The notes beneath the pieces were generated by a model. That model searched no databases. It saw only the letters and a list, made by a program, of their open reading frames with translations, and was not told the origin of the DNA. From NCBI GenBank assembly GCA_018695135.1, contig JABHOV010000069.1, positions 1 to 34,120 of the forward strand: a DNA stretch of 34,120 nt, given 5' to 3'. Below are positions 8,259 through 32,711 of the stretch, piece after piece. The first letter of the stretch is position 1; every line of letters starts with the position of its first letter. Source of the DNA: Candidatus Melainabacteria bacterium (GTDB taxonomy: Bacteria > Cyanobacteriota > Vampirovibrionia > LMEP-6097). Position numbers and translations under genes: made by a program.

Positions 8259-8585
8259 TTAAGCCAAGAGGGGCTTTGCAAGTGGGATTTTAACAACTCT
8301 AATAAATTTATTTACCCAGGTTGCGGTTGCATGATAGAAAGCTACTATACCAATACAAATATGTCCAAGACCAACATGAAAGCCGAGATCATAACCTAAC
8401 TTTAAAAAAATATCAAAACCAAAAGTCATCGTTATCACTAGGTGCAAGAGCATCAAAGTTAAATTTTCATGTCCTGCAAGATAACCACAACTGCAGAAAA
8501 TAAAAAATAAACAACTGCGATTGGCAACAATCCCCCAGAGCCTAAGGAGATTATTTGTTTCCATACATTCATTACGCCCTATCAA
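8259..8585 (-). CDS. Hypothetical small membrane protein
   Basis: Hydrophobic 108-aa ORF; no family recognised. Confidence 0.4.
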   Translation of the reverse strand: MIGRNECMETNNLLRLWGIVANRSCLFFIFCSCGYLAGHENLTLMLLHLVITMTFGFDIFLKLGYDLGFHVGLGHICIGIVAFYHATATWVNKFIRVVKIPLAKPLLA

Positions 8586-8764
8586 TATTCAAACGCAACA
8601 CTATTGGGGGATTCAGGCTGGGAAATAGCATAAGGCACTAAAAAATGCGAAGTCTCAACCCTTGTCTGTCACGTGGGAGTCTTTACAGACCTAACATGGG
8701 TCATACTTTTTCGTTATCCTCTCTGCTTTTTTCCACAACCATGTTATGCACGGACAGAACCTAT

Positions 8765-10854: not shown

Positions 10855-10901
10855 ATAATAATCTCCTGATTAATATCAATCTACCTCTTCTGGGTAATTA
10901 G

Positions 10902-10921
10902 TTTTTGACTTAAGTCAAAAA
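10902..10921. promoter_or_regulatory. Perfect 20-bp palindrome, candidate Crp/Fnr-family operator
   Basis: TTTTTGACTTAAGTCAAAAA between divergent protoglobin and Crp/Fnr genes; contains TTGAC-N4-GTCAA. Confidence 0.75.
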
Positions 10922-10938
10922 TCTGCCAAATTTATCCT

Positions 10939-21020: not shown

Positions 21021-21938
21021 GTGATCTTTGGCGAAATTATTCAAATTGGTGAACACATGAACTTAGAAAATAAATCAGGCAGAATTCATATGTTTCACAA
21101 TGGTTCTAAAAGTATTTTTGTGTTTGGCAATAGATACGCGCCAGACTGTTTTGAAGCAGTAGTACCAAATCATGCAGTTGAAGAAGTTGATTTATTAAAC
21201 AGGTCAGGAATGGTCGGCACTGTGAATAGTAAAAATACTCGTGTCAAAGATCCAACCAAAGTCAAAGTGCTCGGTTATGTCTGTGATGAAGAAGGTAAAT
21301 TGATTAACACAATTGACTATCCTTTGATCAAACTCAAAACCGAAGATAAAAAATCCCCTCGTTCTAAATTAATATTGGTTTGCGGCACAGCAATGAATTC
21401 TGGTAAAAGCATGGCTGCGACCGCTTGTTGTTGGGCACTAACTTCATTGGGACACAAAGTCAGCGCATCAAAAGTAACTGGTACTGCAAGTTTGCAAGAC
21501 ATTCTCAACATGGAAGATGCTGGCGCAGAACACTTTGCTGACTTCACCTTTTTAGGGCATCCTTCTACTTATCTCCTTGAAGAGAAATCTGTTCTTGACA
21601 TCTTCAATAAACTAGACTTGAAATATGCTAATAATCCACAAAATTATTGGATAGTCGAATTGGCTGATGGTATTAATCAAAGAGAGACAGCATACTTGCT
21701 CAACCATGAAGAGGTGAGATCAAGAATTCACAAATTGATTTTTTGCTCTTACGATGCATTTGGAGCCATTGGAGGACTCCAAGTCCTAAAAGACAAATTC
21801 AAACTGAAACCAGATGCAATCTCCGGAGTATGCACCAGTTCTCCATTACATCTCAAAGAACTTGCAGAATATACAAGTATCCCTGTCTTTAATAGTTTTG
21901 ATAAACATTTAGACCAGCTGAAAGCGATTTTGCTTTAA
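21021..21938 (+). CDS. P-loop NTPase domain protein (possibly DUF1611/DgcN-like)
   Basis: Walker A LVCGTAMNSGKSMAAT; WIVELADG segment; N-terminal Rossmann-like extension. Confidence 0.6.
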   Translation: MIFGEIIQIGEHMNLENKSGRIHMFHNGSKSIFVFGNRYAPDCFEAVVPNHAVEEVDLLNRSGMVGTVNSKNTRVKDPTKVKVLGYVCDEEGKLINTIDYPLIKLKTEDKKSPRSKLILVCGTAMNSGKSMAATACCWALTSLGHKVSASKVTGTASLQDILNMEDAGAEHFADFTFLGHPSTYLLEEKSVLDIFNKLDLKYANNPQNYWIVELADGINQRETAYLLNHEEVRSRIHKLIFCSYDAFGAIGGLQVLKDKFKLKPDAISGVCTSSPLHLKELAEYTSIPVFNSFDKHLDQLKAILL

Positions 21939-21976
21939 ACCTCCTCAGATATTCAATCATTCACTAGACCTGTTTC

Positions 21977-22016
21977 AAAAAAAGAGCCAGCTCAGATTGC
22001 TCCAAACTAGCTCTTT
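21977..22016 (-). terminator. Rho-independent terminator for the small Cys-rich peptide gene
   Basis: Minus strand AAAGAGCTAG ... CTGGCTCTTT (one U:G wobble) followed by a T run (A run 21977..21983 on +). Confidence 0.75.
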
Positions 22017-22065
22017 ATTAATCAACTGACTACTGCAAGACAAGATTCAAGTAGCAGCTGTGGAT

Positions 22066-22188
22066 TTAACCACAAGTACAAGACCCGCAAGTGCAAAGTC
22101 CACAAGCACAAGCTGCAGCATATGCAGCACTGGCCCCGCTTGCAAGAACTGCAATAACAAATGCGAATTTAGTTATTAGATTTTTCAT
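22066..22188 (-). CDS. 40-aa exported Cys-rich peptide: MKNLITKFAFVIAVLASGASAAYAAACACGLCTCGSCTCG
   Basis: Codon-by-codon reverse-strand reading; RBS AAAGGAG before ATG; Sec-type signal peptide; six Cys as three CxCG units; followed by terminator. Below the ORF-track length cutoff. Confidence 0.8.
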   Translation of the reverse strand: MKNLITKFAFVIAVLASGASAAYAAACACGLCTCGSCTCG

Positions 22189-22210
22189 TGTTAATTTCTC
22201 CTTTAATGCT

Positions 22211-22242
22211 ATTATTCACTCTAAAGTCGACTTGAGAGTCAA
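22211..22242 (-). promoter_or_regulatory. MerR-type promoter/operator driving the Cys-rich peptide
   Basis: Minus strand TTGACT-20 bp-AATAAT; spacer holds near-perfect 22-bp palindrome ACTCTAAAGTCGACTTGAGAGT (22218..22239). Confidence 0.8.
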
Positions 22243-22268
22243 CACTTTTGGGTCAGAAATTTCAAAAA

Positions 22269-22697
22269 ATGTCTAAAAATGAGCCGAACTACCTACAAAT
22301 AGGTGAATTATCAAAGCAAACTGGCGTGGCCGTCAGTGCCATTCGTTATTACCAAGAAATTGATTTACTTGAACCAAGTTTTTGTAATGATTCCAAATAT
22401 CGTTTTTACGTAGCAAGTGATGTTGCCTTGGTTAATTTCATTCAAAAATCCAAGAGACTAGGTTTTAGTTTAGAAGAAATCAAATCTATCTTAAAAGAAA
22501 GAGATGAAGGACGCTCACCCTGTCCCAAAGTAAGACTTCTAGCCAAGCACAAAATTGCTGAGCTTCAAAAGAAAACAGCAGAACTTAAAAAACTTGAAGA
22601 AGAATTAAATGATTATATCCTTGAAGCAAGTTCAGAGCTTGAATCTGGATCCAATGACTCAAAGATTTGTGGGCTAATTGATAAAGCAAAGGACTAA
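22269..22697 (+). CDS. MerR-family metalloregulator (ZntR/CadR-like)
   Basis: LQIGELSKQTGVAVSAIRYYQEIDLLEPSFCNDSKYRFY...VALVNFIQKSKRLGFSLEEIKSIL; C-terminal Cys (SPCPK, KICGL). Alternative upstream start TTG 22248. Confidence 0.9.
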   Translation: MSKNEPNYLQIGELSKQTGVAVSAIRYYQEIDLLEPSFCNDSKYRFYVASDVALVNFIQKSKRLGFSLEEIKSILKERDEGRSPCPKVRLLAKHKIAELQKKTAELKKLEEELNDYILEASSELESGSNDSKICGLIDKAKD

Positions 22698-32680: not shown

Positions 32681-32711
32681 TTGACAAACGATTGTACTAT
32701 TTAGTACAATC
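32681..32711 (+). promoter_or_regulatory. Sigma70-like promoter with overlapping 22-bp operator for the GST-TetR operon
   Basis: TTGACA - 18 bp - TACAAT; perfect palindrome GATTGTACTA-TT-TAGTACAATC at 32690..32711. Confidence 0.8.

Follow-up and report, generated by a model that had tools for sequence, protein, structure and literature searches.

The window, a 34,120-nucleotide stretch of Candidatus Melainabacteria DNA, carries a 40-codon gene whose predicted product is, with a probability of roughly three in four, a minimal exported metallothionein-like peptide that would be induced by a divalent metal via a divergently encoded MerR regulator and would bind metal through its thiolates in the envelope. 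Judged by its conservation, the ORF is a genuine gene. No model in the Pfam or NCBIfam libraries covers or names its family; nor was a description of the family found in the papers searched, which is weak evidence of absence. If the proposed function is true, then, as the only operator-linked target of its sensor, this 16-residue exported Cys6 peptide would rank with the smallest gene products suggested to serve metal defence, and buffering of metal in the envelope could be the primary response. Annotation easily misses genes as short as this one. The mature micropeptide is small enough for synthesis, and the claim is thus directly testable.

The micropeptide gene and its relatives

The reading put forward by the first-pass annotation, a signal peptide followed by a six-Cys mature part, was recovered exactly (Table 1). 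The full product, MKNLITKFAFVIAVLASGASAAYAAACACGLCTCGSCTCG, splits into the signal-peptide-like and mature parts listed there, the latter ending at the stop codon. The N-terminus reaches a Kyte-Doolittle 11-residue mean of 2.4. A lipoprotein reading was considered and rejected, as the peptide lacks an L-x-[GA]-C lipobox before the Cys part. The ribosome-binding site that had been claimed is an AAAGGAG Shine-Dalgarno sequence preceding the ATG, and the claimed terminator is a 16-bp hairpin with a U-run just downstream (within 21972-22034); its fold energy of -23.1 kcal/mol (z -4.0) was equalled by none of 200 shuffles. A generic terminator scan, with a loop limit of 3-8 and strict tails, missed this element. 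The gene beyond it, at 21021-21938, is convergent with the micropeptide gene, and the plus-strand copy of the terminator can also serve that neighbour. Given the strong terminator and the convergent gene, the micropeptide gene is probably monocistronic.

Table 1. Coordinates of the micropeptide gene, its regulatory elements and the divergent regulator in the window
Feature	Position	Strand	Basis
Exported Cys-rich micropeptide gene, 40 aa (predicted)	22066..22188	-	ORF, profile match, conserved Cys, purifying selection
Signal-peptide-like N-terminus, residues 1-24, MKNLITKFAFVIAVLASGASAAYA	22117..22188	-	AYA|A type-I cleavage motif, lipobox absent
Mature part AACACGLCTCGSCTCG, 16 aa, six Cys (predicted)	22069..22116	-	sequence
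Intrinsic terminator of micropeptide transcript	21981..22016	-	fold energy, shuffles
MerR-type promoter of micropeptide: -35 TTGACT (22242-22237), 20-bp spacer, -10 AATAAT (22216-22211)	22211..22242	-	
22-bp operator dyad ACTCTAAAGTCGACTTGAGAGT, 10 of 11 positions paired	22218..22239	.	only close match to operator pattern in the genome
MerR-family metalloregulator, divergent from micropeptide	22269..22697	+	Pfam MerR_1 and MerR-DNA-bind

To find relatives, both the peptide and the MerR were used as queries against 197 related genomes; peptide alignments were then run against a class sample and a phylum sample, each of 392 genomes. The single-sequence search returned mostly noise below its top dozen matches and missed true members (e.g., C27 of genome G029), which were recovered by the alignment search. 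In total, the family comprises 16 homologues from 11 Vampirovibrionia (Melainabacteria/Caenarcanales) genomes; two members belong to the window's genus (the window copy and that of its congener G002) and all others to family f6. Low-scoring profile matches from family f4 (E 1e-4 to 0.1) were left out, as they mostly covered the signal part only and lay inside longer ORFs. In all 16 homologues the N-terminus is hydrophobic and none of the six Cys residues varies, so that the conservation of frame and Cys spacing in relatives, named earlier as a check on the interpretation, was borne out. The earlier description of a five-residue CxCG periodicity holds for the window copy but not for the family, whose rule is CxC-x(2-3)-CxC-x2-CxC. 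An AxA-like motif precedes the Cys part in several homologues, and a clear AxA site is missing from some; members of the latter kind may stay membrane-anchored with the Cys tail outside.

To avoid circularity, a profile was built from the f6 relatives alone, with the window excluded. Searched against the window's six frames, it matched only the micropeptide, at an E-value of 8.3e-5 scaled to the genome. When the mature part was shuffled, none of 1000 permutations reached the micropeptide's score; the score also fell when the signal part was shuffled, with 2 of 1000 reaching it. Among the three closest relatives, pN ranged from 0.04 to 0.11 and pS from 0.24 to 0.71, values which show, at the level of sequence, that these close relatives are under purifying selection.

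The distribution of the unit is narrow. A tblastn search of plasmid records produced no copies, its four partial matches being at chance level (E 2 or more), and no homologous peptide was found within 2.5 kb of MerR relatives from true cyanobacteria and Proteobacteria (L112-L187). The MerR proteins of true cyanobacteria are approximately 38-42% identical to the window's and have no peptide beside them, and the MerR-micropeptide unit is therefore a lineage-specific arrangement.

Other short Cys-rich peptides were encountered in the scanned loci. A second unnamed family (L066:7123-7275, L192:6028-6180, L194:5783-5935 and L063:5901-6056) comprises peptides of 50-51 aa with one hydrophobic segment and a Cys-rich tail, e.g., CNCVNLCSCLACFCCK; its genes mostly lie beside one for a YHS-domain exported protein and near CusA/CzcA genes, and three copies compared show a pN lower than pS. 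In genus f3/g28, a 40-aa Cys-rich peptide with no clear signal is encoded on the same strand as, and just downstream of, a different MerR, a separate pairing (L072:6464-6586, L073:5975-6097 and L074:5430-5552, which overlap the MerR stop; L070:1734-1856 and L071:6472-6594). A 56-aa exported Cys-rich peptide of family f8, CACCKVCKCEPVCNC, is likewise encoded just downstream of a MerR gene (L075:5971-6141). Two copies of yet another exported Cys-rich peptide, CECTGCDTCTxGDCSCSSCECD, occur in family f5 (L079:5816-5953 and 8550-8684), with no metal regulator recognised nearby. YjbQ/UPF0047 genes recur near micropeptides (L061:6414-6953, L067:2547-2963, L077:4641-5072, L078:5658-6074, L188:5362-5778 and L189:6774-7214).

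The promoter and the divergent MerR regulator

Promoters controlled by metal-sensing MerR proteins have 19-20-bp spacers containing a dyad (PMC9909328, PMC3431237). The MerR-type promoter proposed in the first-pass annotation has this architecture: in the sense of the peptide it reads TTGACT-CTCAAGTCGACTTTAGAGTG-AATAAT, with a 20-bp spacer and the 22-bp dyad ACTCTcAAGTCGACTTtAGAGT. A generic sigma-70 scan, which allowed spacers of 16-18 only, detected no promoter at this position. Over the -35 element plus spacer, 22 of 26 positions agree with the ZntR operator of Escherichia coli zntA, a sequence confirmed in 5398 of the 5426 E. coli genomes searched and located just upstream of annotated zntA. 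The operator pattern has one close match in the window's genome, at the micropeptide; apart from merR itself, which may be autoregulated, the micropeptide is thus the sole target found with a link to the operator. Two further near-perfect 22-bp palindromes, GTTTTTGACTTAAGTCAAAAAT and GATTGTACTATTTAGTACAATC, lie elsewhere in the window, at 10901-10922 and 32690-32711.

Seven loci encode a MerR at least 45% identical to that of the window, and at six of these the peptide is immediately divergent. A TTGAC-N20 promoter with the conserved dyad is present at all seven, to which the mismatch-free operator is confined among the 12 genomes searched. At the seventh locus, in G024, the same operator faces genes for a MerC-like membrane protein and a thioredoxin-like protein, which the close MerR relative would drive (L065:6777-7485).

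The regulator gene starts with the ATG at 22269, with an extension possible from a TTG at 22248. The winged-HTH MerR fold is evident from matches to PF13411 (8e-15) and PF09278 (3e-17), and the nearest solved structures are those of MerR(Hg) and CadR. No ZntR, CadR or MerR equivalog of NCBIfam reached its cut-off, the best score being 85.8 bits against 150.85 for TIGR02051. In the protein encoded at 22269-22694, C85, which is invariant in the alignment with ZntR, is the equivalent of ZntR C79, and C134 that of C124. A Cys at ZntR position 79 is a mark of divalent sensors (PMC9909328, PMC3431237). Of the usual Cys residues, the MerRs of the window and G002 keep only these two, and they lack the ZntR ligands C114, C115 and H119; the f6 MerRs also carry ZntR's CC pair. 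Because of these missing ligands, the metal and even the metal response are uncertain in the window's genus. Given the altered MerR loop, Zn, Cd or Pb would be no more than a first guess for the inducing metal.

Metal-linked neighbours, proposed role and alternatives

The regulators beside the family include MerR proteins of the ZntR type as well as members of the CsoR, ArsR and Fur families. A CsoR-type repressor is divergent from five homologues (G014, G019, G024, G038 and one of the two in G042), with one small gene intervening in G024. These repressors carry a Cys-His-Cys set, the ligand set of Cu(I) sensors, and taccc/gggta-type dyads are present at several promoters of this group. Fur-family regulators adjoin three homologue loci (G024, G054 C65 and G029 C14). 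Furthermore, CusA/CzcA-type efflux genes accompany homologues in G029, G054 and G019. In G054, the peptide gene heads a same-strand series that continues with genes for a YHS-domain exported protein, another Cys peptide, an OMF, an MFP and an RND pump of the CusA/CzcA type, and the order in G029 is equivalent. The linkage of two unrelated sensor families to one peptide family is the strongest argument for metal as the common theme. The earlier suspicion of a metal link thus extends beyond a single MerR to a zntA-like operator, CsoR neighbours and CusA/CzcA-type RND genes beside homologues.

The window's own genome (2.05 Mb) offers a sparser picture. No P-type ATPase was detected in it, an absence that is not certain at 94% completeness, and no CusA/CzcA-type RND was found, the only full-size RND scoring as a multidrug type; a CDF transporter is present. 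There is no efflux gene beside the window's micropeptide copy. OEP-type outer-membrane efflux proteins fit a two-membrane envelope, in which the micropeptide would be periplasmic. The genome also encodes a VKOR homologue, which suggests an oxidising periplasm; exported thiols may thus be oxidised, a problem unless metal binds first or conditions are anoxic.

On the proposed route, a divalent thiophilic ion, most likely Zn, Cd or Pb, would enter the cytoplasm and bind the MerR dimer sitting on the 20-bp-spaced promoter, inducing the micropeptide. The peptide would be exported through Sec, after which cleavage at AYA|A would free the mature part of about 16 residues, or the peptide would stay tethered to the inner membrane. 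Outside the cytoplasmic membrane, its six thiolates could form a Cys6 cluster that binds a few Cu(I) ions or about two divalent ions, the latter number being taken by analogy from the gamma domain of wheat Ec-1. Metal so bound would be buffered in the envelope, and toxic metal would be trapped there. In relatives whose operon runs into a CusA/CzcA-type RND pump, the peptide may deliver metal to that pump as well. The sequences show the gene, its six conserved Cys residues, the operator, the divergent MerR and, in relatives, the linkage to metal sensors and pumps; from these we infer induction, export, cleavage, metal binding, the identity of the metal and its buffering or delivery. Somewhat better than even odds can be given to the broader proposal that these peptides form a distinct class, the minimal exported metallothioneins of non-photosynthetic Cyanobacteriota, in which one six-Cys module on an export signal is wired to a ZntR-like MerR or a CsoR as needed. 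In the window's genus, the peptide would then be MerR's sole operator-linked target, in place of the efflux ATPase of E. coli.

The same neighbourhoods can be read in other ways. The peptide could serve mainly to transfer metal to an acceptor in the envelope, such as an RND/MFP pump, in the manner of CusF, which would be a sub-case of the metallothionein-like reading and compatible with metal binding. The same-strand operons of G054 and G029 speak for such a shuttle; the window gene, however, stands alone with its terminator in a genome where no CusA/CzcA-type RND was found, and delivery as the main role is rather unlikely. Less plausible still is an envelope thiol/redox peptide, induced by metal or oxidative stress, whose paired Cys residues, instead of storing metal, would alternate between dithiol and disulfide states and so protect or reduce proteins of the envelope. 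The arrangement of the Cys residues in CxC pairs, the VKOR homologue and the one relative whose MerR drives MerC-like and thioredoxin-like proteins are in keeping with this idea. The neighbours, however, are metal-sensor regulators and CusA/CzcA pumps, the peptide matches no thioredoxin-like or Dsb-like family, and the spacing of its six Cys resembles that of metallothionein domains, so that a redox role is unlikely.

A RiPP precursor of the ranthipeptide/SCIFF-like kind, with modified Cys residues and a function as metallophore or signal, might be imagined from the repeated Cys units; SCIFF peptides contain six Cys in about 45 residues, similar to the micropeptide in size and Cys number. Such a precursor is highly improbable here, as the N-terminus is of the export type rather than part of a leader and core beside a maturase. 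No radical-SAM maturase was found beside the gene in the scanned loci, where the motif CxxxCxxC occurred only in two homologous 482-aa proteins; it lies there in a hydrophobic stretch, and the proteins are not radical-SAM-like. With only 40 codons, the ORF could also be a non-functional chance reading or a regulatory leader peptide, given that Cys-rich upstream ORFs can act as attenuators. Conserved Cys residues and purifying selection argue against both, and the strong terminator followed by a convergent gene leaves nothing in the window to attenuate; the chance of either is close to negligible.

Comparison with known systems

Proteins such as ZraP, CusF and SilE resemble the micropeptide in expected place and role, as envelope metal buffers or chaperones beside efflux systems. 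They are set apart by description, being longer, folded or Met/His-rich, in contrast to a bare Cys6 peptide. The prokaryotic metallothioneins SmtA/BmtA (PF02069) are likewise short Cys-rich proteins found beside metal-responsive regulators. SmtA-type metallothioneins are cytosolic and longer, whereas the micropeptide is predicted, from its hydrophobic signal-like N-terminus with AYA|A, to leave the cytosol. Neither it nor its G054 and G002 homologues matched PF02069 at E up to 1, while a BmtA-like protein of a relative (L071) matches that model at 4e-18.

Plant metallothioneins (wheat Ec and the C-terminal domain of type 2, PF01439) share the Cys pattern CxCxxxCxCxxCxC with it; the best PDB profile match of the micropeptide is wheat Ec metallothionein (2kak, E 0.003). 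The PF01439 cut-off of 23 bits was not reached, with no match for the micropeptide and 17.9 bits (0.006) for one homologue. Plant metallothioneins consist of several domains and, unlike the micropeptide, have no bacterial export segment; the likeness is probably convergent Cys spacing. The gamma domain of wheat Ec-1 also has six Cys residues. Its metal load is two ions of Zn or Cd (PMC4813231, PMC6269658).

The best-known role of MerR-type sensors is to turn on efflux ATPases (PMC9909328). The window's system resembles that of the Zn/Cd/Pb sensor ZntR and zntA in its TTGACT-N20 promoter, its 22-bp dyad and the equivalents of C79 and C124, and differs in that its MerR lacks C114, C115 and H119 and its target is a 40-aa exported peptide instead of the P-type ATPase of E. 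coli. Targets other than pumps have been described: for the MerR regulator PmtR of Proteus mirabilis, the listed target is a zinc-binding protein (PMC9909328). The closest published parallel found is CadR-Zrd of Pseudomonas aeruginosa, in which a Cd/Zn-responsive MerR regulator activates the gene for a Cys-containing protein that the authors liken to metallothioneins (PMC12301328). Zrd is described there as a zinc-ribbon protein that has two Cys4 sites and whose N-terminus is disordered, with no mention of export (PMC12301328), whereas the micropeptide combines an export-type N-terminus with six Cys.
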